Shown: positions 4,129 through 21,038, counted from the stretch's first letter. The stretch is 60,658 nucleotides of DNA from Candidatus Neomarinimicrobiota bacterium (GCA_017656425.1 JACDNV010000002.1:247512-308169); one strand, 5' to 3'. Translations and numbers: made by a program. Notes: generated from the sequence alone by a model not told the origin.

Positions 4129-5160
4129 ATGAAATTTACATTGGCACAGATTACTGAGCTTATTAAAGGCAAGCTCGAAGGAGATGAAAATATTGTAATT
4201 ACAGATGTGGCGGAGATTCAAAACGCTATAGATGGTCAAATAAGCTTTTTACACAATCCTAAGTATTATAAATACATTGGTGTGACAAAAGCGAGTGCGG
4301 TAATTGTCCCCAATAATTTTAAAGGAAGTTATAAGAACCTGATATATGTTGATAATCCAAACTATGCTTTTTCTCTTTTGATAAAAAAGTTTCGTCCTGA
4401 GCCGTCTTTGCCAGAGCCAGATGTGGATAAAACTGCAATTATTAGCAATAAGGCTAGTGTTTCTAATAAAGCTTATATAGGACCATATGTTGTCATTGAA
4501 GAGGATGCGATCATTGAAGATGGTGTGGTAGCTTATGGTCATTCCTACATAGGCAAAGGGGTATCAATAGGTGCGAATACAGTTATCTATCCAAATGTGA
4601 CTATTTATAGAAATTGCCATATTGGAAGAAATGTGATGATACACTCGGGAACTGTAATAGGTAGTGATGGCTTTGGTTTTACTCAGGTAGGTGGAAGAGT
4701 GGAAAAAATCCCTCAGGCTGGTGGGGTGATCATAGAGGATGATGTAGAAATAGGTGCAAATTGTACTATTGATAGGGCTACTATAGGCAATACTGTCGTA
4801 GGAATGGGTACAAAGTTAGATAATTTGATTCAGATAGGTCACAATGTTAAGATTGGCAAATTTTGTCTTTTTGCTGCGCAGACAGGAATTGCAGGTAGTA
4901 CAACAATTGAAGACGGAGTGCTATGTGGTGGGCAGGTCGGTATATCTGGCCATCTTCACATTGGAAAGGGTGCAAAAATAGCTGCTCAATCAGGTGTTTC
5001 GAAGGATATACCACCTGGAGCTACTGTATTTGGATATCCAGCGAGAAATGCAATGAAAGTAAATAGAGAACTAGCTTATATCAGTTCTCTACCAAATTTG
5101 TTTAAAAAAGTTAAAGAAATAGAGGAAAAACTGAAAAAGGGAACTGAAAATGAGAAGTAA
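4129..5160 (+). CDS. lpxD: UDP-3-O-acylglucosamine N-acyltransferase LpxD
   Basis: Third acylation-stage enzyme of lipid A synthesis; it transfers a 3-hydroxyacyl chain from acyl carrier protein to the 2-amine. The 343-residue protein has the LpxD N-terminal uridine-binding domain (about 1-95, with ISFLHNPKY). A left-handed beta-helix of hexapeptide repeats follows (about 100-300, repeated I-G-x patterns). The catalytic-His region reads LIQIGHNVKIG, followed by AAQTGIAGS, as in the family. A C-terminal helix ends the protein. Its last 11 bases overlap the start of lpxC-fabZ, which suggests translational coupling. Confidence 0.95.
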   Translation: MKFTLAQITELIKGKLEGDENIVITDVAEIQNAIDGQISFLHNPKYYKYIGVTKASAVIVPNNFKGSYKNLIYVDNPNYAFSLLIKKFRPEPSLPEPDVDKTAIISNKASVSNKAYIGPYVVIEEDAIIEDGVVAYGHSYIGKGVSIGANTVIYPNVTIYRNCHIGRNVMIHSGTVIGSDGFGFTQVGGRVEKIPQAGGVIIEDDVEIGANCTIDRATIGNTVVGMGTKLDNLIQIGHNVKIGKFCLFAAQTGIAGSTTIEDGVLCGGQVGISGHLHIGKGAKIAAQSGVSKDIPPGATVFGYPARNAMKVNRELAYISSLPNLFKKVKEIEEKLKKGTENEK

Positions 5161-6544
5161 TCAGAGGACCATCAAGAATGAGGTAAGCGTATCTGGTATA
5201 GGATTACATACAGGAGTCGAAAGCACTATTACATTTAGACCCTCCCCTGTAAATACAGGAATAAAGTTTGTACGTACTGATGTTGATGGTTGTCCCGAAA
5301 TACCAGCGGATATAGATCATGTTGTCGATATATCTCGCGGGACTACAATAGCGCAAAATGGTTTTAAAGTTCATACAGTAGAGCATGTTCTGGCAGCTGT
5401 TGCAGGGCTTGAGATAGATAATGTATTAATTGAGTTGAATAATATAGAGCCTCCTGTCTGTGATGGAAGCGCCCTGGAATTTGTTAATGCTTTAAAAAAG
5501 GCTGAGATCGTTGAGCAGGATGAAAAGAGAGAGGTTTTAATAATTGATAAGATTATTACATACACAGATCCAGAAAACAGAGTTGATATTCATGTATTAC
5601 CAGCCGATGATTTTCGAATAACTTTTTTAATTGATTATAAATATATAGGGATAGGTACTCAGTATTCAGCAATGTACTCTTTGAAGGATGAATTTGAAAT
5701 AGATTATGCTGCGGCGAGGACTTTTTGCTTTTTAAGTGAAGTGATCTATTTAAAAGAAAGAGGTTTGATAAAGGGGGGTAGCCTCAATAACGCTTTAGTA
5801 TTTGCAGATAAAGAATTAACACCTGAGGAAAAAAGAAAAATTAAAGATCTCTTTGGACTTTCGGAGGATATTATAATAGGTCCTAACGGATTAATCGGCA
5901 GTTCTGATCTAAGGTACTATAACGAACCTGTACGACATAAAATTTTAGATTTAATAGGGGATCTTGCGCTTCTGGGAATGCCAATTAAAGGACATGTTAT
6001 AGCAGCAAGAAGTGGCCACTCTCATAATGTCAATCTTGTTAAGAAAATAAAGAAAGAATATGAGAAGCAACTGATTAAGCAGAAGTTTCAGAGGGAAGAG
6101 ATAAAAGGTGCTCTATTCGATATTTCGACTATTGAGTCTGTTCTTCCGCACCGTTATCCTTTTCTATTAGTGGATAGGATAGTTGACCTTGTGCCAAGGG
6201 AACATGTCATAGCTATTAAAAATGTTACAGTTAATGAACCCTATTTTGTTGGTCATTTCCCCGTAAAGAAAATAATGCCCGGTGTACTGATTGTAGAGGC
6301 ACTTGCACAGGCGGGAGCATTTCTACTTTTGAATACAATTGAAGATCATGATAAAAAACTTGCTTATTTTGCGGCAATAGATAATGTAAGGTTTAAAAGA
6401 CCTGTGATACCAGGTGATCAGCTCCGACTTGAAGTAAAGATGCTTAATTATAAATTATCCACGTGTAAAATGCATGGACAGGCGTTTGTTGATGGAGAGC
6501 TGGCAGCTGAAGCAGTAATGATTGCCTCAATAGTAAATAGGTAA
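5150..6544 (+). CDS. lpxC/fabZ: Bifunctional LpxC-FabZ: UDP-3-O-acyl-GlcNAc deacetylase fused to 3-hydroxyacyl-ACP dehydratase
   Basis: A single 464-residue chain joins two enzymes. The LpxC half (about 1-305) performs the committed zinc-dependent deacetylation of lipid A synthesis. It keeps Glu78-His79 in VEHVLAA and His263, Lys264 and Asp267 in RHKILDLIGD. The FabZ half (about 324-464) dehydrates 3-hydroxyacyl-ACP. It shows PHRYPFLLVDR, His369 in GHFPVKKIMPG and Glu383. Both active sites look intact. The fusion is known from Bacteroidota and related FCB lineages and is the strongest taxonomic marker here. It could help balance hydroxyacyl-ACP use between lipid A and phospholipids, but that is inference. 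Confidence 0.95.
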   Translation: MRSNQRTIKNEVSVSGIGLHTGVESTITFRPSPVNTGIKFVRTDVDGCPEIPADIDHVVDISRGTTIAQNGFKVHTVEHVLAAVAGLEIDNVLIELNNIEPPVCDGSALEFVNALKKAEIVEQDEKREVLIIDKIITYTDPENRVDIHVLPADDFRITFLIDYKYIGIGTQYSAMYSLKDEFEIDYAAARTFCFLSEVIYLKERGLIKGGSLNNALVFADKELTPEEKRKIKDLFGLSEDIIIGPNGLIGSSDLRYYNEPVRHKILDLIGDLALLGMPIKGHVIAARSGHSHNVNLVKKIKKEYEKQLIKQKFQREEIKGALFDISTIESVLPHRYPFLLVDRIVDLVPREHVIAIKNVTVNEPYFVGHFPVKKIMPGVLIVEALAQAGAFLLLNTIEDHDKKLAYFAAIDNVRFKRPVIPGDQLRLEVKMLNYKLSTCKMHGQAFVDGELAAEAVMIASIVNR

Positions 6545-11590: not shown

Positions 11591-12727
11591 ATGGGTGAAT
11601 TTAGCCTGTTACGAGATTTTTTGAAAATCAAGACAAAGAGATTCCCTGTTACTACGGCCTACCTTACCAAGAATATTGTAGGGCGAGGGAAGATGAGTTA
11701 TATGACGGAATTGAAGAAATTAATTCGGTACAAGCAAAATAAGTCCTATTATAGAGAGTTAAGTGAGGAGGAAAGGAATTTTGTTTCTCAAGATTTTGAA
11801 AGAATTTTAAAATTTGCAAATGAGGATTTTCCTATTAATGGCAAACTTACAAGTGTTTGTTTTTCTTCAGTAGGAGAAAACTTGTGGGAAGTGGTAAATT
11901 TTGATGTTCCATTTATGACAGAAGTAGAAGTTCAGCCTTTTGTATATATTAAGCCTTTAGCAAAATTGTACAGTCATTACAGGAATTATGGATTAGTATT
12001 GGTGGATAAAGCTAAAGCAAAAATATTTGAAAGAAGACTTGGTAGCAATATTGAGCATTTCCAGGTAAGAAGTAATCAGGTAGAGTCTATTAAATATGGT
12101 GGTTATAAGGGTAGGGATGAAAGAAGCGTTGAGAGGAATATTCACAACATAATATTAGGTCATTACAAAGAGGTTTCCAAAAAGGTTTCTGAATTAGATA
12201 GCAAGTTGAATTTCAATTGGATTATACTTGGAGGACACAGAGATGTATTAAATGAGTTTAAAAAATATCTAAAAGATGACATCTTATGTAAAGTACTTGG
12301 TGAAATGATAATAGGCCCTGAAGTGCCTACTGACGATGCTTTCAAGAAAGTTGAATCGATGGAGGATATTATAAAGGCTGAATATGAGAAAAGATTGATT
12401 CAAAAGGTGAGGGAACTATCAACAGAAAATTATGCTGTAGAGGGTATACAAGCTGTTATTATTTCTAGCAGGAAAAGAGCAGTAAAAACACTTTTATTCG
12501 CAGAAGATTTTATTCAAAAGGGTCATTATTGTAAAGATTGTGGTTTAATTGATACCGGGGATGCTACTAAATGTCCCGATTGTGGTAATAACCTAATGAT
12601 AACAAACGATGTAACAGAAAATTTGATACATTCCGTTCTGGAAAATGGTGGTAATATAGAAGTCATTGAGAAAGAAAAAGATAAAATCCCTGGAATAGCA
12701 GCAATTTTATATTTTCCAATTGTATAA
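11591..12727 (+). CDS. Bacterial eRF1/aRF1-like protein (baeRF type) with GGY loop and zinc ribbon
   Basis: This 378-residue protein has the layout of archaeal/eukaryotic release factor 1. An N-terminal mixed domain (about 1-120) is followed by a middle domain (about 130-265) and an L7Ae-like third domain (about 270-378). At the start of the middle-domain helix, where eRF1 carries the peptidyl-tRNA hydrolysing GGQ, the sequence reads KYGGYKGRDERS, i.e. GGY at 170-172. Charged residues and the RN helix follow in the eRF1 order. The third domain contains a zinc ribbon with CKDC (314, 317) and CPDC (328, 331). Bacterial relatives (baeRF families) are proposed to act in ribosome rescue or stress. 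It stands alone, with its own leader and an ideal GGAGG seven bases before the ATG. Confidence 0.75.
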   Translation: MGEFSLLRDFLKIKTKRFPVTTAYLTKNIVGRGKMSYMTELKKLIRYKQNKSYYRELSEEERNFVSQDFERILKFANEDFPINGKLTSVCFSSVGENLWEVVNFDVPFMTEVEVQPFVYIKPLAKLYSHYRNYGLVLVDKAKAKIFERRLGSNIEHFQVRSNQVESIKYGGYKGRDERSVERNIHNIILGHYKEVSKKVSELDSKLNFNWIILGGHRDVLNEFKKYLKDDILCKVLGEMIIGPEVPTDDAFKKVESMEDIIKAEYEKRLIQKVRELSTENYAVEGIQAVIISSRKRAVKTLLFAEDFIQKGHYCKDCGLIDTGDATKCPDCGNNLMITNDVTENLIHSVLENGGNIEVIEKEKDKIPGIAAILYFPIV

Positions 12728-12793: not shown

Positions 12794-12822
12794 TTGACTA
12801 ACAGGCATTAGTTAAATATATT
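12794..12822 (+). promoter_or_regulatory. Strong sigma70-type promoter of the motor operon
   Basis: TTGACT at 12794-12799 and TATATT at 12817-12822 are spaced by exactly 17 bases. The spacer contains a small dyad ACTAA-CAGGCA-TTAGT that overlaps the -35 edge and could be an operator. Transcription would begin near 12829, giving a leader of about 60 bases to the ATG at 12889. It lies in the 161-bp gap before the lipoprotein-motA-motB-fliF-fliG block. Confidence 0.6.
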
Positions 12823-12888
12823 TACAGAAGCAAGGTTAGTTTTGAATTATGTTAATAAACTTAAAAAATTTTCCGAAGGGTGGGAATA

Positions 12889-13809
12889 ATGAAACAAAAA
12901 TTTATAATCATTCTATCCGCTTTTATATTTATAGTTTCCTATAGTTGCGGGATTTTTAAAGAGGTAAAAAGAGAAGAACCTGTTAAAGAGTTGCCAATAG
13001 AAGAAAAGGAAATTCAAGAGCCTACTGAAGAGACTACTCGCGTTGGGTTAAAAATTCCAGAGCAAGTTTCAGATAAAGAAAAAGAAGAAGTAATTAAGGA
13101 ACTGTCTTTTGAAGTTAAAAAACTAACCGCAAAGGTCTCATCACTTGCTAACGATTTAAACGAATTAAAAGCAAGAGCTCAAATATGGCAGAATCCATTT
13201 TCTTTTTATGACAAAGAAATAATACTAACCAATGGGACATCTATTTTCGGGAAGATAATATACCAAGATGATGAGATTATCAAAGTGGAGACACTTATTG
13301 GTTATCTGGTTGTAAAAAGAGATGAAATTGTAAGGATTGTGTCGAATACAGTAGCTCAGGCAACAGAATATGTAATTCCTGAAGAGGTAGAAAAACGAAT
13401 GGAGTCTCAGGCCCCAACCACCCAGACGCAAACAGTCTTAATTCCTAAAACTCAAACTAAGGTTTCTGCTATAGGCACTGGACAGGCAAATTGTGTACTG
13501 ATGGGATCAGTTAAAGAAAGAAAAACATCAACGGGTAACCTGGTTCTTTATGGAGAGGTTAAAAATATTGGGACAAGAAGAGCAGATTTTGTCAAGATTA
13601 ATTTTGTTTTTCGTAGGGATTGGAGCGGAACAAAGGATATAAAAACGGTTTTTGTAGAAGGTTCTAGTTATACATTTAAAAAAACAGGGATTACTACCAG
13701 TAATTCACTTCAGCCCGGGGAAACTGGGAAGTTTGAGCTAATATTACCTAAAAATTTCGGGACATTTGTTAGCTATAGTTATAATATTGAATGGGAGTAT
13801 TTTGATTAA
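12889..13809 (+). CDS. Lipoprotein with coiled coil and FxLYD-like domain, first gene of the motor operon
   Basis: A 306-residue exported protein. The N-terminal hydrophobic segment ends in a lipobox-like VSYSC, so the mature form should be a lipid-anchored envelope protein. A Glu/Lys-rich linker and a short coiled coil follow (about 60-95). Next comes a small beta module with LTNGTSIFGKI and VKRDEIVRI, a type common in FCB envelope proteins. The C-terminal beta domain (about 195-306, LVLYGEVKNIG and SLQPGET) resembles FxLYD. The ATG at 12889 is preferred over the in-frame GTG at 12880 because AAGGG lies 8 bases before it. The stop overlaps the start of the next gene (TAATG). A role in the motor complex is inferred only from the operon. 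Confidence 0.75.
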   Translation: MKQKFIIILSAFIFIVSYSCGIFKEVKREEPVKELPIEEKEIQEPTEETTRVGLKIPEQVSDKEKEEVIKELSFEVKKLTAKVSSLANDLNELKARAQIWQNPFSFYDKEIILTNGTSIFGKIIYQDDEIIKVETLIGYLVVKRDEIVRIVSNTVAQATEYVIPEEVEKRMESQAPTTQTQTVLIPKTQTKVSAIGTGQANCVLMGSVKERKTSTGNLVLYGEVKNIGTRRADFVKINFVFRRDWSGTKDIKTVFVEGSSYTFKKTGITTSNSLQPGETGKFELILPKNFGTFVSYSYNIEWEYFD

Positions 13810-14570
13810 TGAATAGAATATATTTATTAATTGTAATGATAATATTTGTTTGTTTAAGTAATCTACAAGCTCAGGATGTAAATAAAGAGCTTGAAGAGAA
13901 AAGAAAAGAGCTTGAAAAAAAGGCTGTAGAAATTCTTGATTTACGCTCTGCTCTTATAATCCAGCAAGCAGAGCTTAATCAGTTAAGGAAAGAACTTGAA
14001 AAGTTGAGAATTCAAAATGAGATTTTAAATGACTCGCTAAGGAGGAAGGAATCAAAGATTAAAAATCTCGAAGAGCTTCTAAAAACAGTAAAAGAAGATA
14101 AAGAGCTGTCCACGGCGATAATTAGGAATATAAGATCATCTGCAGATACTCTTTCAGAAGAAAAAAGTATAGTCGATTCTGTTTTGACCGATGAGGAGTA
14201 TATTTCAATATATAATAATGCTCTATCGATGTACTTTAATAAAGAGTATAGAGCCAGTATGGATAAATTTGAATATCTTGTGGTTGCTAACAGTAAGCAT
14301 CCGTTAGCCGATAATGCTCAATACTGGTTGGGAGAATGCTATTATTCAATGGAAAGGTACCAAGATGCTATTGAAGCATTTCAGAGGGTATTAGATCTTG
14401 GTGATGGTAATAAGTCTGATGCAGCTATTTTTAAGATCGGATTGAGCTATCTAAAACTTGGGAATAAGATAAAAGCACATGAGATATTTGTAGATCTTGA
14501 AAAGAGATATCCTGACAGTGAACTGGTTGAAAAAGCAAAAGAGTATATGAAATTAGATACAAGTTTTTAA
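13809..14570 (+). CDS. CpoB/YbgF-like periplasmic coiled-coil TPR protein
   Basis: 253 residues: a signal peptide (cleavage near LQAQ22), a long coiled coil (about 24-98) and a C-terminal TPR block (about 130-250, with YWLGECYYSMERYQDA and IGLSYLKLGN). This architecture matches the Tol-Pal-associated YbgF/CpoB family, which coordinates peptidoglycan synthesis and outer-membrane constriction. Here there are no tol-pal genes. The neighbours are the lipoprotein upstream (overlap TAATG) and, after a 213-bp gap, the barrel-TPR protein and motAB. It may therefore serve the motor as a periplasmic scaffold, which is an inference. Confidence 0.75.
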   Translation: MNRIYLLIVMIIFVCLSNLQAQDVNKELEEKRKELEKKAVEILDLRSALIIQQAELNQLRKELEKLRIQNEILNDSLRRKESKIKNLEELLKTVKEDKELSTAIIRNIRSSADTLSEEKSIVDSVLTDEEYISIYNNALSMYFNKEYRASMDKFEYLVVANSKHPLADNAQYWLGECYYSMERYQDAIEAFQRVLDLGDGNKSDAAIFKIGLSYLKLGNKIKAHEIFVDLEKRYPDSELVEKAKEYMKLDTSF

Positions 14571-14642
14571 TGATACTGTTTACCGGCATTAAATATTGTT
14601 ATGAAAATCTTGAGGAATATATAATTCCATATAATAAATGCA

Positions 14643-14671
14643 TTGTTTTAACAAATTGGTGCTATTATATA
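14643..14671 (+). promoter_or_regulatory. Possible internal promoter before the barrel-TPR and motA genes
   Basis: TTGTTT (14643-14648) and TATATA (14666-14671) are spaced by 17 bases inside the 213-bp gap 14571-14783. The -35 is weak. It could give separate expression of the genes from 14784 onward. Confidence 0.3.
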
Positions 14672-14700
14672 TTTCAAAGTCTCACTTTTTATCACAATTT

Positions 14701-14712
14701 AACTTATAAGTT
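14701..14712. promoter_or_regulatory. Perfect 12-bp palindrome AACTTATAAGTT
   Basis: A perfect self-complementary 12-mer lies about 72 bases before the ATG at 14784 and about 30 bases after the possible -10. It is flanked by CACTTTT on the left and AAAAGTG on the right. Its position suggests a repressor site, but AT-rich palindromes can also arise by chance. Confidence 0.3.
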
Positions 14713-14783
14713 TAACAAAAGTGAAAATTTTACAATTGGAAAAGTGAAAAAAGAATAGTTAATTATGTACTGAGGGAACAGGA

Positions 14784-16130
14784 ATGATATTGAGGAAAAC
14801 AATATACCCTATTGTAATACTCATTTTGGAAATGGTCTGTCTGGCGTTTACTAGAGGCATAACCAGAGTTTCATTTACAAGACCTAGTTATATGATGAAA
14901 ATTCCAATCAGTAGTAAAGAAATAAGCCCGTATGTATTTAGAACGGGATTATCAACAGAGATGTTTGATTTTTCCGACATAGTTGTAAATACAGAAGCTG
15001 TATATTTTGAGACAGATTTGACAGCATCTTTTAAATTAGGAGTGACTACCATTCAGGGTGTTGCTGGTGATTCGCCAGTAGAGATTGGTTTGCATTTTCA
15101 GAAAAAGTTTTTTGAATATAGCGATGTAAGTTTTTCTGCTGGATTATATGATTTTGTATTTCAGCAAGGTAGCAGTAAGATGTCCCTTGATACCAGAAGT
15201 TTATCTCTTTTCGGTGTTTTAGGAAATGAGAAAGAATTTGAAAATTATAAGCTAAATACTTATATAGGTATAGGCACAGGTGGATTTTCAAAAGAGAATG
15301 TGAGGAGTGATTCAGCCCGTGGTAATCAACTTGGTTTTTTTGCAGGAATAATGTTGAATACATCTGCAATGCAGGAAAAGGGTGGTATTGATTTCATTGC
15401 AGAGTATGATGGGACAGGTGTAAATATGGGAATTAGAGTACCAATTGGTTCAAATTATAAAATTAATTTTGGTGTAATACATATGGAGAATCTTCCGAAA
15501 TTTGGGAAGTCCTACCGATGGGATTCTCCAGCTTTTGTTGTGAGTCTTGATTTTGTAGTTCCCAGAATTAAGGAAATAAAAACCGAAAAACCTGGAATGC
15601 AGGTTCCTCAGAGGCAATCTACTATTAAGGAATTAAATGCTCAGGAGTATTATGAACAAAAGATAGATTCGATATTAAAAGCATGCGATATCATTATAGC
15701 CGGTTTGCGAGATTCAATAGAATTTTATGAAAGTCAAATTAAATATTTGTCTAATGAAATTACATACTTGAGGCAGAAAATTGGTGTATTAGAGGATTCT
15801 GTTAGAAGTGTTAAACTGGCAAAATATGCAATGGAGAGAAATACCAATATGGCATTGAGGCATCTATCTAAATCACTGAGGTACTTTTATGAGGGGGATT
15901 ATATAGGAGCGTTGAAGGAGGTTGAAAAAGCGATTGAATTAAATCCAAATCTTGCTCTTGCTTATGCAAGAAGGGGATCGATTTATTACAAGTTAGGCGA
16001 TATAGAAAGGGCAACTTTAAACTGGAATCTTGCCCTAAGGCTTGACCCGGATTATGAAGATGTGAGGAATATTTTAAAGGCAATGAGCGAGTATAGATTA
16101 AAAAGTGTGAAAGGATTGGGGAAGGAATAG
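14784..16130 (+). CDS. Exported beta-rich (probable outer-membrane) protein with coiled coil and TPR tail
   Basis: 448 residues in three parts. After a signal peptide (about 1-25) comes a beta-strand-rich, Gly/aromatic-rich region (about 30-265) that looks like a small outer-membrane barrel. A coiled coil follows (about 280-350), then TPR repeats (about 355-435, with YFYEGDYIGALKEVEKAIE and ARRGSIYYKLGD). I know no named family with this order. It precedes motA by seven bases and would be suited to connect the outer membrane to periplasmic parts of the motor. GAGGG lies before the ATG. Confidence 0.7.
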   Translation: MILRKTIYPIVILILEMVCLAFTRGITRVSFTRPSYMMKIPISSKEISPYVFRTGLSTEMFDFSDIVVNTEAVYFETDLTASFKLGVTTIQGVAGDSPVEIGLHFQKKFFEYSDVSFSAGLYDFVFQQGSSKMSLDTRSLSLFGVLGNEKEFENYKLNTYIGIGTGGFSKENVRSDSARGNQLGFFAGIMLNTSAMQEKGGIDFIAEYDGTGVNMGIRVPIGSNYKINFGVIHMENLPKFGKSYRWDSPAFVVSLDFVVPRIKEIKTEKPGMQVPQRQSTIKELNAQEYYEQKIDSILKACDIIIAGLRDSIEFYESQIKYLSNEITYLRQKIGVLEDSVRSVKLAKYAMERNTNMALRHLSKSLRYFYEGDYIGALKEVEKAIELNPNLALAYARRGSIYYKLGDIERATLNWNLALRLDPDYEDVRNILKAMSEYRLKSVKGLGKE

Positions 16131-16137
16131 GTAAAAG

Positions 16138-16932
16138 ATGGACATTGCAAGTTTATTAGGGATAATAGCAGGTACTGGATTAATTTTAATGGGGATATAT
16201 CAATTAACCCCTGATTTTATAATTTTCGTGAGTTTACCCAGCTTTTTAATTGTAGTAGGCGGATCTCTTGCTGCAACGATGATAAGTTTCTCAATGGGAG
16301 AAGTGTTGGGGATTATTAAGTCTGCAATTGCTGTTTTCCGTAGGGAAAAAATAAAGATGGCGGCAATAGTAGATACCATTGTAGAACTTGCACCTATAGC
16401 TAGAAGAAGCATGCAGGATTTGGAGAAGGAGATTCCCCGTATTTCAGAACCATTTTTAAGAGACGGAATTCAGATGATTGTTGATGGGTATAACAGAAAT
16501 GAAATCAGAACAATACTCGAAACGAGAATCATAAATAGGGCACAGAGAGAGAAGGCTGAAGCTAATGTTTTGAAAACAATGGGTAAATTTTCACCTGCTT
16601 TCGGTATGATCGGGACACTAATTGGACTCGTAGTTATGTTATATGGTATGAGTGAATTTTCTGCGGCCGGTGAGGACCCAATGAAAACTCTTGGTGCAGG
16701 TATGGGTGCTGCATTGATAACCACATTTTACGGAGTGATATTAGCTAATTTAATTTTTAATCCAATGGCTGTAAAATTCGAATCGAGAATTGAGAAAAGA
16801 AATATGCTTCAGAGGATGCTTATAGAGGGTATATTGCTTTTACATGAAAGAAAACACCCTCTTATTATCAGGGAAAGATTAAATTCTTATCTTAGACCGA
16901 GGGAATGGAAAAGAGAAGAGGAAGCAAGATAA
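16138..16932 (+). CDS. motA: MotA-family stator protein
   Basis: A 264-residue inner-membrane ion-channel subunit of the MotA/PomA family, about the normal length. Four membrane segments are visible (about 3-22, 27-52, 151-172, 186-208). The large cytoplasmic loop keeps charged residues after the second helix (ARRSMQDLE, Arg89-Arg90 and Glu96), which in MotA touch FliG. Pro153 in SPAFGMIGTLIGLV corresponds to the conserved MotA proline beside the MotB aspartate, and GMGAALITTFYG with NPMA completes the signature. It is clearly closer to MotA than to ExbB/TolQ. It is seven bases after the barrel-TPR gene and three before motB. Confidence 0.93.
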   Translation: MDIASLLGIIAGTGLILMGIYQLTPDFIIFVSLPSFLIVVGGSLAATMISFSMGEVLGIIKSAIAVFRREKIKMAAIVDTIVELAPIARRSMQDLEKEIPRISEPFLRDGIQMIVDGYNRNEIRTILETRIINRAQREKAEANVLKTMGKFSPAFGMIGTLIGLVVMLYGMSEFSAAGEDPMKTLGAGMGAALITTFYGVILANLIFNPMAVKFESRIEKRNMLQRMLIEGILLLHERKHPLIIRERLNSYLRPREWKREEEAR

Positions 16933-16935
16933 AAA

Positions 16936-17613
16936 ATGTATGAAGGTAATGATATAGAGAAATTTGCGGTTGAAAAACCAGCTGAGGAGGAGCAGCCGTG
17001 GTTATTGACCTACGGTGATATGATGACTCTTCTTCTGACGTTTTTTGTTCTATTGTTTTCAATGTCTACAATTGATCCTGTTAAGCTTGAGATGTTCAGT
17101 AATTCCGTTGGTAAGGCACTTGGAATAAAAAAGGCAAAGACATATTCTTTAAGTGAGATTTATCGAGAAGTTGTTCGAGTTGTTGAAGAAGAAAATTTAA
17201 AGAAAGTAATTGAAGTGCAGACGAGTGCACGTGGAGTAGCAATAAAAATACCGAGTGAGATAAGCTTTGAATCGGGTTCAGCAGAGCTTGATCCAAGAAT
17301 TTATCCAATTTTAAATAAAATTGAGCCCATGATGAGACGGTCTGTATTCCCTATTGCTATTGAGGGGCATACAGATAATGTTCCAATTTCGTCGGGAAAT
17401 TATCCATCAAACTGGGAGCTTTCATCAGCTCGAGCTTGTAGAGTTGTAAGATATTATATTAATAGGGGATTGGATCCTTCGCGTTTCCGTGCAATTGGAT
17501 ATGCATCTACACGTCCACGTGCCCCAGGGAGAACGGTTGAAGAAGCGAATGATACTCCCCAAAAAAGGGCTCAAAATAGAAGAGTTGAGATTGTATTTTT
17601 AACAGTTGAATGA
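16936..17613 (+). CDS. motB: MotB-family stator protein with OmpA-like peptidoglycan-binding domain
   Basis: 225 residues with one N-terminal membrane helix (about 22-44). The ion-carrying aspartate is Asp28 in PWLLTYGDMMTLLLTFF, equivalent to E. coli MotB Asp32. A periplasmic plug/linker follows, then an OmpA-C domain (about 110-225) with EGHTDNVP, SNWELSSARA and NRRVEIVF, which anchors stators to peptidoglycan. All hallmarks of a working MotB are present. Together with motA it forms the stator, and the fliF- and fliG-like rotor genes follow directly. It ends before the AAAGGAG of the fliF-like gene. Confidence 0.94.
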   Translation: MYEGNDIEKFAVEKPAEEEQPWLLTYGDMMTLLLTFFVLLFSMSTIDPVKLEMFSNSVGKALGIKKAKTYSLSEIYREVVRVVEEENLKKVIEVQTSARGVAIKIPSEISFESGSAELDPRIYPILNKIEPMMRRSVFPIAIEGHTDNVPISSGNYPSNWELSSARACRVVRYYINRGLDPSRFRAIGYASTRPRAPGRTVEEANDTPQKRAQNRRVEIVFLTVE

Positions 17614-17629
17614 TAAAGGAGTAAATAAA

Positions 17630-18901
17630 ATGAGGTATCTAAAAATTTTAATAGTAGTTTTTGTATTTGTGCCATTTATTCTACCTCAGGTCTCACATTT
17701 ATCTTACTATTCACAAAAAATTATGCTTGAGAATGCAATAAAAGATAGAATAAACGAAGCTTTAAATAAAATTCTTGAGGATATAAAATTTGTTGTAGAT
17801 GTAAATATTGAATTGGATTACCAAACCAGTCAGCAAGAGATTCGGTCAAAAGAAGAGGTTGGTGAAAAGCCTACTACCGAAAGCAAATATTTACCTTTAC
17901 CAGGATTTGAAACTCCCAGTGATCTTACTATAGAGGAACAGCAAGAAGCCACCAGTGTAGAACAACAAAAAACAGTTACACCTCCTTCTGGTGTGCCTAT
18001 TATAAAAAAGCAAACAATAAATATTATACTGGAAGAAGGGATATCGTCAGAACTGATACAAAGTGTCAGAGAGGTTGCAAGCGTTGCAGCACATCTTGAT
18101 AAAACAAGGGGTGATGAGCTAATTATAAAAACAGCCCCATTTACAAAACAGAAAGGCGATGCTGAGGCGCTGATTTTGAAAAATATAGCAGAAAAGATAG
18201 ATGAAATAGATAAAAGGCAAAAAGATATTGAAGGAAAAGCGAGACTTGAGGAGGAGAAAAGGAGAGAAAGGGAAAGGATAGTACAGGATTCTTTAAGAAT
18301 AGCACAATTGGAGGAAGAGTTACAAAGGCTTAAAGAAATATTGGCAACGCAACAGTTGACTGAGGCACAAAGGAGGATTACAGAGGATCAGGCAACAGAG
18401 AGGGAGCGACAAATTGATACATTGAAGGCACAGCTTGAGGAAAGTAATCGGAAGCTACAAGAACTTGAAAAAAGTTTGGCCGGGACTCCGCCCAGAGGGT
18501 TCTTATCTCTGGGTAATAATTATTTGATGTACTTAATATTAGGTGTATTAGTATTACTATTGATTATAGCACTTATATTGATTCTTACAATGAGACGTTC
18601 TGTTAAACCAAATTCAGTGGTAACTGAAAGGGTTGAAGAGCCAGTTGTTATAAAACCCCAGTCCAAACAACAGGTAGTTACCCAACCTCAGATAGAGGTA
18701 GAAAAAGCTGTAAATGAAACTAAACTAAGGCAAGAAGAGGAGCGTTTGAAAAAACTTGAAGAGTTGGAGCAGCAGAAAGAAGAGTTAAAATCGTTGAAAC
18801 AGTCGGTCATTTCTATGAGTGTTGGGCAACCGGATGCGGCTACAAGAATATTAAGGGAATGGTTAAAAGTTTCAAAGTCAACAGAATCTGAAGAAGAATG
18901 A
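17630..18901 (+). CDS. Minimal FliF-like MS-ring protein lacking the export-ring domains
   Basis: 423 residues. An N-terminal membrane/signal segment (about 4-20) leads straight into a region like the third ring-building motif of FliF: FVVDVNIELD near 54-63 and, after a low-complexity loop, DKTRGDELIIKTAPF at 157-171, matching FliF's RGD-x-pF ending. A periplasmic coiled coil of about 100 residues (183-285) is inserted next. A second membrane helix follows (298-322), then a cytoplasmic tail. The tail ends in GQPDAATRILREWLK (about 399-413), which resembles the FliG-binding C-terminus of FliF. The first two ring motifs (YscJ/FliF region) are absent; normal FliF is about 550 residues. The ATG at 17630 has AAAGGAG eight bases upstream; an earlier in-frame start at 17606 would overlap motB. 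Confidence 0.8.
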   Translation: MRYLKILIVVFVFVPFILPQVSHLSYYSQKIMLENAIKDRINEALNKILEDIKFVVDVNIELDYQTSQQEIRSKEEVGEKPTTESKYLPLPGFETPSDLTIEEQQEATSVEQQKTVTPPSGVPIIKKQTINIILEEGISSELIQSVREVASVAAHLDKTRGDELIIKTAPFTKQKGDAEALILKNIAEKIDEIDKRQKDIEGKARLEEEKRRERERIVQDSLRIAQLEEELQRLKEILATQQLTEAQRRITEDQATERERQIDTLKAQLEESNRKLQELEKSLAGTPPRGFLSLGNNYLMYLILGVLVLLLIIALILILTMRRSVKPNSVVTERVEEPVVIKPQSKQQVVTQPQIEVEKAVNETKLRQEEERLKKLEELEQQKEELKSLKQSVISMSVGQPDAATRILREWLKVSKSTESEEE

Positions 18902-18920
18902 AAATATTTTGGAGGATATA

Positions 18921-19853
18921 ATGGCTGAAGAGAAGGTTTATGATGGTATTGATAAAGTAGCGATTTTATTTAAAACGCTAGGCTTTCATCTGGCGGCACA
19001 GCTTTTTAAAGGGATATCACCACAGGATTTGCATAGAATAAAGCTGCGTATGGAGGCAATAGGGGAAGTACCTTTTAAAGTGAAAAGGTCAATTCTTGAA
19101 GAATTTTATGTTACATTCATCCAGGAGAAAGTAAAGCCAGCGGGTAAGGAGACAAGAAAACCTTTTGAATTCCTTGAGAGGTTAACTGATGAACAAGTTG
19201 CTTATCTAATTTCCAATGAACCACCGAGAATAATGGCTTTGACAATTGCACAGCTGGATGTCGATAGACAATCAAAAGTTATACAATTACTCGATCCTAC
19301 CATACAACCAAAGGTGTTGACTGAGATGGGAAATCTTGACGATATTCCCCTTGAGGGTGTTGTTAGTATAGCGTCTGAGTTGAAGGAAAAAGCCAATTTT
19401 CTGCCCAAGGAATCTGAATTTTCCAGAGGTGGTGGAAAGAGTGTCGCTGGTATTTTATCCCGTTTGAGACCAAGTGATGAGAAAAGATTTCTGGAATATC
19501 TTGAGAAGGAAGCTCCTGAACTTGTCAAAGAAGTAAAAAGGTATTATATAACTTTTGAAGATCTCGTGAAATTGCCATCAGGTATTCTGGCAGATGTTTT
19601 GAAGTCTGTCGAGGTCTCTGATATTGCTTATGCACTTAAGGGGCAGCCAGATAATATTCAGGAAAAGTTTATAAACGTATTGCCCCAAAGAACCAGGATA
19701 ATCCTTGAAGACGAAATGAAGCTTATTGAGGGACCACAGCCCAGGAGAAAAGTAGAAGCTGCTCAAAAAAAGATTGTAGATAAAGCAAGAGAGCTTGAGC
19801 GAGAAGGCCGATTTAGTCTGCAGGATCTGTTAGAAGAAGACGTTATAGAATAA
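18921..19853 (+). CDS. fliG: FliG-like rotor protein
   Basis: 310 residues aligning with FliG over the full length (family about 330). An N-terminal FliF-binding domain (about 1-72) with KVAILFKTLG comes first. The middle domain (about 80-165) has the FliM-binding EHPQ motif changed to EPPR at 100-103. A Gly-rich hinge GGGKSVAGIL follows at 170-179. The C-terminal torque domain contains ITFEDL, ALKG and EGPQPRRKVEAAQ. The charged residues that interact with MotA in E. coli have counterparts: Lys240, Arg257, Asp264 and Glu265 (E. coli Lys264, Arg281, Asp288, Asp289). The ATG at 18921 has GGAGG five bases before it. A torque-generating role with the adjacent MotA is therefore likely. Confidence 0.9.
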   Translation: MAEEKVYDGIDKVAILFKTLGFHLAAQLFKGISPQDLHRIKLRMEAIGEVPFKVKRSILEEFYVTFIQEKVKPAGKETRKPFEFLERLTDEQVAYLISNEPPRIMALTIAQLDVDRQSKVIQLLDPTIQPKVLTEMGNLDDIPLEGVVSIASELKEKANFLPKESEFSRGGGKSVAGILSRLRPSDEKRFLEYLEKEAPELVKEVKRYYITFEDLVKLPSGILADVLKSVEVSDIAYALKGQPDNIQEKFINVLPQRTRIILEDEMKLIEGPQPRRKVEAAQKKIVDKARELEREGRFSLQDLLEEDVIE

Positions 19854-19895
19854 TCTATTTTTTATTCATAAATATAATAGGATTGTGGGATATTA

Positions 19896-21038
19896 ATGAG
19901 ATTGAAGACTGTTTTATATGTATTTATTAATATAATCATACTTTATAGACTTGTGAACTCAAATGAGTTAATTGAAGATAATACCGACGAGATACTAGAA
20001 GGCGTAAAATCAATATATAGACTTGACTATAATAGGTCTTATGAAATTTTTCTGGAAAATTTTGAAACCCATCCATTATCACCATTTGGGTTAATAGCTG
20101 TAGAGTGGTTGAAAAACCAACAGATTGAATCCATGAAAAGAGCAAATGACAAACTCGAACAGGACATAAAAAGAGTCGCTTCTTATTATAAAGAGAAATT
20201 AGAAAATAATAGAGAAGATTATTATAGTTTGTTCTATTATGGATTGACTCTGGGATTAAAAGCAAGATTATCGCTTGCAAAAAAGGATTGGCTTGGGATT
20301 CTAATAAATGGATATAAAAGTGTGAAATATATGAAGAGAGCTATAGATAATATTAAAGATGATTATGATGTATATCTACCTGTAGGTCTATTTAGTTATT
20401 ATGTCGGAATATCTTCTTCTTATATGAAAATTGCTTCTTACATATTAGATATTGCAGGTTCAAAGGAAGAGGGATTAGAATATATGAAATTGACAGCTGA
20501 TAATGGTAAATACGGGAAATATGAAGCTCAGGGAATTCTTGCTTTTGTATATTTATATATTGAGGGCAATTATAATGAATCATTAAAATATTCTAGGCTA
20601 TTATCAGAAGAATTTGACGAAAATCCGTACTATAAGTATCTTATGGCAGAGGCATATTTAGAGATAGGCCAACTAGATAAGGTAATAGAATTAACTAAGG
20701 GAATCGAAAAATATTTGCCCAATCTAAATAACAGAGTCAAAAGGGAAAACGAATTTCGCTATAATCTTCTCAAGGGTAGTATATACCTTTATACGAACCA
20801 GTTGTATGACTCAGAGAAATTTTTAACGAAATGTTTAAATTTTGACGATTTTGATCTGGATTATGAACTTGGGAATTTGTATTTAAGGCTTGGTTTTTTA
20901 TATGACATGTTGGGAAAGCGTACTAATGCAAAATTCTGGTATCGAAAGGCAATTGAATCTGATAATAGAAGTATTACAGTTAAGAGGGCAAAATATTATT
21001 TGAATACTCCATTTAATTTAGAAAAAAATGGTGGATAG
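19896..21038 (+). CDS. Exported TPR-repeat protein at the end of the motor block
   Basis: 380 residues with a signal-like N-terminus (about 1-20) and helical repeats throughout. TPR-like units are clear near 215-260 (ILAFVYLYIEGNYNESLKYSR, LMAEAYLEIGQLD) and 290-365 (LLKGSIYLYTNQLYDSEKF, GFLYDMLGKRTNA). It is probably periplasmic. It follows fliG by 42 bases with no visible terminator, and its last 11 bases overlap ispG. It could be a motor scaffold or an unrelated passenger gene. Confidence 0.7.
   Translation: MRLKTVLYVFINIIILYRLVNSNELIEDNTDEILEGVKSIYRLDYNRSYEIFLENFETHPLSPFGLIAVEWLKNQQIESMKRANDKLEQDIKRVASYYKEKLENNREDYYSLFYYGLTLGLKARLSLAKKDWLGILINGYKSVKYMKRAIDNIKDDYDVYLPVGLFSYYVGISSSYMKIASYILDIAGSKEEGLEYMKLTADNGKYGKYEAQGILAFVYLYIEGNYNESLKYSRLLSEEFDENPYYKYLMAEAYLEIGQLDKVIELTKGIEKYLPNLNNRVKRENEFRYNLLKGSIYLYTNQLYDSEKFLTKCLNFDDFDLDYELGNLYLRLGFLYDMLGKRTNAKFWYRKAIESDNRSITVKRAKYYLNTPFNLEKNGG

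Follow-up and report, generated by a model that had tools for sequence, protein, structure and literature searches.

Why should a bacterial locus keep stator and rotor genes of a flagellar motor side by side, behind genes for envelope proteins and with no gene for the rest of a flagellum among them? We addressed this question for a locus in a 60,658-nucleotide stretch of DNA, hereafter the window, from a Candidatus Neomarinimicrobiota bacterium (GCA_017656425.1, JACDNV010000002.1:247512-308169). The answer that we think probable is that these genes specify the torque-generating half of the motor as a rotary machine of its own, driven by ions and working at the outer membrane.

Gene content and order of the locus

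ORF calling revealed eight collinear ORFs at 12880-21038 of the window, all on the + strand. The first three encode envelope proteins: LP (12880..13809), a lipoprotein in this clade and the first gene of the conserved module, with an LA_0442-like small domain followed by an FxLYD-like domain at the C-terminus; a CpoB/YbgF-like protein (13809..14570) with a signal peptide, a coiled coil and TPRs, whose match to TIGR02795 scored 80.8 bits, under the 90.1 cut-off; and BCT (14784..16130), the module-specific marker, predicted to have an outer-membrane beta barrel, a coiled coil and C-terminal TPRs. These are followed by the stator subunits MotA2 (16138..16932) and MotB2 (16936..17613), and by FliF2 (17630..18901) and FliG2 (18909..19853). 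The consecutive MotA, MotB, FliF-like and FliG genes behind three envelope proteins that the initial annotation had described were thus confirmed by the ORFs, by Pfam and NCBIfam models and, for the FliF-like protein, by Foldseek. For FliF2, a start at 17630 (ATG with AGGAG) is better than one at 17606. The eighth ORF, a downstream TPR protein (19896..21038), is present as had been noted, but it is a local neighbour conserved only within the taxonomic order of the window genome and lies outside the core module. The ORFs that we examined near the locus included no gene for FliM or FliN, nor for export, rod, hook or filament, as the initial annotation had stated.

In most relatives a second CpoB-like copy precedes the barrel gene; it is missing in the window genome, where a 213 bp gap (14570-14784) marks its position. 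Upstream, 11591-12727 encodes a bacterial eRF1-like protein (baeRF family 10), which often lies upstream of the module in several families. Farther away, a single 464-residue ORF at 5150-6544 resembles, by eye, an LpxC-FabZ fusion.

MotA2 and MotB2 are flagellar-type stator subunits

Stators divide into flagellar and generic clades, and R90 and E98 are residues of named stator-rotor pairs (PMC12505986). MotA2 matched PF01618 (7.9e-28) and the PomA/MotP models (~185 bits) in Pfam and NCBIfam, its nearest PDB chains are MotA/PomA, and the equivalents of the above two residues, R89 and E96, are conserved in at least 90% of 76 sequences. Pro153 and the cytoplasmic charges that had been read from the MotA2 sequence are present, the latter also in the R89/E96 alignment. 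That the best NCBIfam models are those of sodium-type PomA/MotP may be a clue to the ion used, as a hint and no more. MotB2 matched MotB_plug (2.8e-18) and OmpA (2.5e-16) in Pfam, the latter being the peptidoglycan-binding domain, and its DMMTLL and WELS motifs are conserved in at least 90% of 67 sequences, with the ion-binding Asp (Asp28 in the window protein, as reported earlier) kept. The pair thus has the features of a flagellar-type MotAB stator: the torque charges in MotA and, in MotB, the plug/TM, the Asp and the OmpA domain.

FliF2 is a shortened FliF and FliG2 a three-domain FliG homologue

By itself, the window FliF2 gave a weak match to PF08345, the Pfam family of the FliF C-terminus (E=0.015). 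The assignment as a FliF is based on its family and its predicted fold: PF08345 was matched by 40 of 43 FliF2 relatives (best 1.8e-15), a FliF2 family profile run against the PDB returned M-ring chains first (E=3.9e-5), and each of the 16 PDB matches that Foldseek gave at E<=0.001 was a FliF MS-ring (S-ring/RBM3) structure. After an N-terminal hydrophobic segment, the AlphaFold model has the RBM3 topology (helix-strand-loop-strand-helix-strand, pLDDT ~95), then long helices at 177-285 corresponding to a coiled-coil stalk of ~109 residues, a single membrane helix at 291-323 and C-terminal helices. Stalk and tail make up most of the protein, which keeps whole-query TM-scores low, and comparison with a single flagellar FliF sequence aligned only 43 columns, weakly. 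The sequence is poorly conserved except in RBM3 and in the tail, whose consensus, SVVSMSVGQPxxATxIVxEWL, is similar to the end of FliF that binds FliG; the FliF-type FliG-binding tail singled out in the initial annotation is found in the window protein as QPDAATRILREWL. RBM1/RBM2 (PF01514, YscJ_FliF) are missing from FliF2, and a PF01514 search of the window genome returned the flagellar FliF only (see below). FliF2 is therefore a FliF cut to the RBM3 ring domain, plus a coiled-coil stalk, a membrane helix and a FliG-binding tail. Stalk length correlated with MotB2 linker length in the raw data (rho 0.55), but with independent contrasts r was 0.03 (rank 0.29, p=0.03), and this covariation is unusable as a sign of a shared gap.

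FliG2 matched FliG_N (7.8e-14), FliG_M (8.2e-14) and FliG_C (1.6e-28), all over the curated Pfam cut-offs, and in a tree its clade is separate from flagellar FliG with 100/100 support. Within the EHPQ motif for FliM contact, E alone is invariant in 53 FliG2 sequences, with H, P and Q replaced, whereas E, P and Q are invariant in flagellar FliGs (n=13); judged from these alignments, the FliM-contact motif is lost from FliG2. The torque-helix charges noticed earlier in the window protein proved to be there, K264, R281, D288 and D289 all being kept in it and in its order. Outside that order, the torque helix is shortened in most lineages and the equivalents of D288/D289 are lost (P occupies the D288 position in 41 of the 53 FliG2, while K264 and R/K281 stay), and torque transfer there cannot therefore be canonical.

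BCT is a predicted outer-membrane barrel

AlphaFold modelled BCT as a 12-strand barrel with a coiled coil and TPRs (pLDDT 83), for which Foldseek found FapF, KdgM, NanC and a designed 12-strand barrel, besides TPRs. The model thus suggests that BCT resides in the outer membrane. The Pseudomonas amyloid transporter FapF, which gave the best barrel matches, also has a coiled coil, but identity is only 13-15% over the aligned part, and BCT differs in its additional TPRs and in its place in a motor gene cluster.

The window genome also has a flagellar cluster

The initial annotation had presented the locus as one without a flagellum. This is wrong for the window genome (2.8 Mb, 99.7% complete), and we rejected the idea that it is flagellum-free: contig C3 holds, at 130000-180000, a flagellar and chemotaxis cluster with P- and L-ring, rod, hook, export-gate, FliI, FliM and FliN/FliY genes, and also with chemotaxis genes, a FliF of 534 residues, a FliG of 336 residues and a MotAB separate from that of the window. 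A check of the genome for further flagellar genes thus located fliM, FliN/FliY and the export gate on this contig. The cluster is not a flagellar regulon without its own motor genes; it has its own motAB, fliF and fliG, so that the motor set in the window is an additional, independent one.

The module is widespread in the phylum and independent of the flagellum

When sought in related genomes, the gene order proved to be conserved across the phylum, most of the genomes concerned having no flagellum. A first comparison with 41 relatives found it in many families, and LP-CpoB-like TPR-BCT-MotA-MotB-FliF2-FliG2 is the order that recurs throughout Candidatus Neomarinimicrobiota (Marinimicrobia/SAR406; Fidelibacterota). 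Searching the GTDB genome collection with a module-specific BCT alignment gave 141 loci, of which the best 80 are from Candidatus Neomarinimicrobiota/Marinimicrobia or are labelled only 'FCB group' or 'bacterium'; a pattern search of this kind favours close relatives, and the module may also occur in other phyla. Of these 80 public contigs, 58 carry the full run BCT-MotA2-MotB2-FliF2-FliG2; in each of the others, one or more of its genes are absent or incomplete within the sequence retrieved, in most cases where a contig or flank ends. LP was found at 72 of the 80 loci, and the remainder are mostly cut by contig ends. Neighbour clustering identified LP, the CpoB-like protein, BCT, MotA2, MotB2, FliF2 and FliG2 as the sole recurrent genes in most loci.

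We then tallied the module (BCT marker at E<=1e-50) and FlhA (over its cut-off) in 245 genomes of the phylum, some of them incomplete. The module was present in 164 and FlhA in 42: both in 33, the module only in 131, FlhA only in 9 and neither in 72. There is therefore no association of the module with FlhA (Fisher p=0.10), and FlhA is not required beside it, 131 of the 164 module genomes having no FlhA over the cut-off. Several near-complete genomes (G036, a single contig, and G037, G026, G014 and G025) have the module but neither FlhA nor FliM. In the 41 genomes tested for FliM, it tracks FlhA with two exceptions (G006, with FlhA but no FliM match, and G034, with the module and a partial FliM but no FlhA) and is absent from nearly all flagellum-free carriers of the module. 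Across nine pairs of related loci, LP, BCT, MotA2, MotB2, FliF2 and FliG2 had dN/dS values of mostly 0.01-0.1 (highest 0.14), and hence all module genes tested are under strong purifying selection.

A probable rotary machine and its alternatives

In the machine that we propose, the MotA2B2 stator, held to peptidoglycan by the OmpA domain of MotB2, would push a ring of FliG2 carried by the cytoplasmic tail of FliF2. The RBM3 domains of FliF2 would form a periplasmic ring, kept off the inner membrane by the coiled-coil stalks, and torque would reach the BCT barrel via ring and stalk, probably with the CpoB-like and LP proteins as intermediates. The output would be mechanical work at the outer membrane, most likely the moving or remodelling of outer-membrane or surface proteins and not swimming; movement of surface proteins as the specific output is a tentative assignment, with about one chance in three of being right. 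With no export gate, no rod, hook or filament would be made, and a machine lacking FliM/FliN would not be expected to switch direction in the way that the flagellum does. Fidelibacter multiformis IA91 (2.79 Mb genome, 45.6% G+C), the sole isolate that the phylum has, is reported to be non-motile (PMC11652737); if it carries the module, swimming is not the module's function. The envelope-spanning rotary machine suggested in the initial annotation is thus the best-supported reading, in which assembly of the ring, its rotation, the coupling with the barrel and the output are the parts that we infer; the gliding, surface movement or energised transport proposed there would be candidate outputs.

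The alternative that survives best, unlikely as we consider it, is that FliG2 and FliF2 are a static dock that recruits and gates MotAB, the 5:2 stator itself working on the outer membrane; the CpoB-like, barrel and peptidoglycan-binding parts would then make up a Tol-Pal-like envelope machine, comparable to TolQR, ExbBD or GldLM. The YbgF/CpoB-like partners in the module would fit such a machine, as would the degraded torque helix of FliG2 in many lineages, the non-motility of the isolate and the fact that the sole TolQ/ExbB-type protein found in the window genome adjoins ExbD and TonB. A Tol-type machine, however, needs no three-domain FliG mounted on a FliF RBM3 with a FliG-binding tail, and MotA2 keeps the flagellar-type charges of the torque interface, with the canonical FliG torque residues also kept in the window's order.

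Still more doubtful is a role as the motor for T9SS, in secretion or in the movement of T9SS surface proteins. The phylum does appear to have a vacancy for one, as sorting domains occur in 41 of 41 genomes (81 matches in the window genome) and SprA in 40 of 41, with the GldL model over its cut-off in 0 of 41. But module-less genomes (e.g. G002, G005, G031) keep SprA and many T9SS cargoes, and the module is therefore not needed for secretion; moreover, another candidate competes for this role, namely a third MotAB pair whose neighbour is PorQ-like. An obligatory T9SS energiser was accordingly rejected as stated, SprA and cargo being kept in genomes without the module, which could nevertheless move T9SS-displayed surface proteins.

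It is very improbable that the locus supplies spare or specialised parts, with its stator and rotor as a second set exchanged into the motor of the cell's own flagellum. Some flagellated bacteria are known to have two stators, and the window genome does have a flagellar cluster, but the distribution largely refutes this reading, given the module genomes without FlhA and the flagellum-free carriers without FliM described above, and in each of the 13 flagellar FliGs used for comparison, EHPQ still has the P and Q that are lost from FliG2. A decaying remnant of a lost flagellum, to which the partial flagellar gene set at the locus might point, has next to no probability, being ruled out by the low dN/dS across the nine locus pairs and by a gene order intact across the phylum, besides which a flagellar cluster coexists in the window genome and the partners BCT and LP are not flagellar genes.

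Relation to known systems

The proposed rotary machine has in common with the flagellar motor a homologous stator and rotor, with the MotA torque charges, the MotB Asp, the FliF RBM3 and the FliG-binding tail. It differs in having no export gate, rod, hook or filament but outer-membrane barrel and TPR partners, a FliF that is without RBM1/RBM2 and gains a coiled-coil stalk, and a FliG that has lost the FliM-contact motif, FliM itself being absent from nearly all flagellum-free carriers. Like TolQR-Pal/CpoB, ExbBD-TonB, GldLM (T9SS) and AglRQS (Myxococcus), it would use ions to drive a motor in the inner membrane that acts on the outer one, and a CpoB-like partner is a further likeness to non-flagellar 5:2 motors; these, however, are without a FliG/FliF rotor, and the A subunit of the module is of the flagellar type. 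MotA2 matched flagellar MotA models, the GldL model passing its cut-off in none of the 41 genomes, and for Tol-Pal the comparison involves a CpoB-like partner under the YbgF cut-off and a single ExbB-type protein, found with ExbD and TonB. The injectisome (non-flagellar type III secretion), which also retains part of the flagellum, is its mirror image: there the export half is kept and the motor is absent, whereas in the module the motor is kept and export is absent.

We found no account of this module in the open literature, subscription papers and preprint servers being mostly outside the search. Its component families are known, but a stator combined with a FliG/FliF rotor in the absence of an export apparatus is an assembly that we could not match to any described kind. 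On balance, we lean towards an undescribed class of trans-envelope rotary machine, in which MotAB turns FliG/FliF without type III export and ring and stalk drive a barrel complex, present in most of the phylum with or without a flagellum. The known non-flagellar ion motors would thereby gain a machine with a rotor, and the module bears on the modular assembly of the flagellum. Rotor proteins in non-motile species have been described as an open puzzle (PMC12199754), of which the locus is a conserved and concrete instance, open to testing, in which a stator and a rotor under purifying selection occur together beside outer-membrane partners but no flagellum. The host phylum is one of the widespread uncultured ocean phyla, mostly marine, and annotation of FliG, MotA or FliF in such genomes should not count as evidence of a flagellum.

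Other MotA/ExbB-family genes in the window genome

A search for the MotA/ExbB family in the window genome found no separate TolQ. An ExbB-ExbD-ExbD-TonB operon lies at C8:22646-24753. The third MotAB pair, which belongs neither to the flagellar set nor to that of the window, is at C1:278264-279776, where its neighbours are a large hypothetical protein and an outer-membrane protein with a weak likeness to PorQ; the pair is a candidate motor for T9SS, which here lacks GldL.
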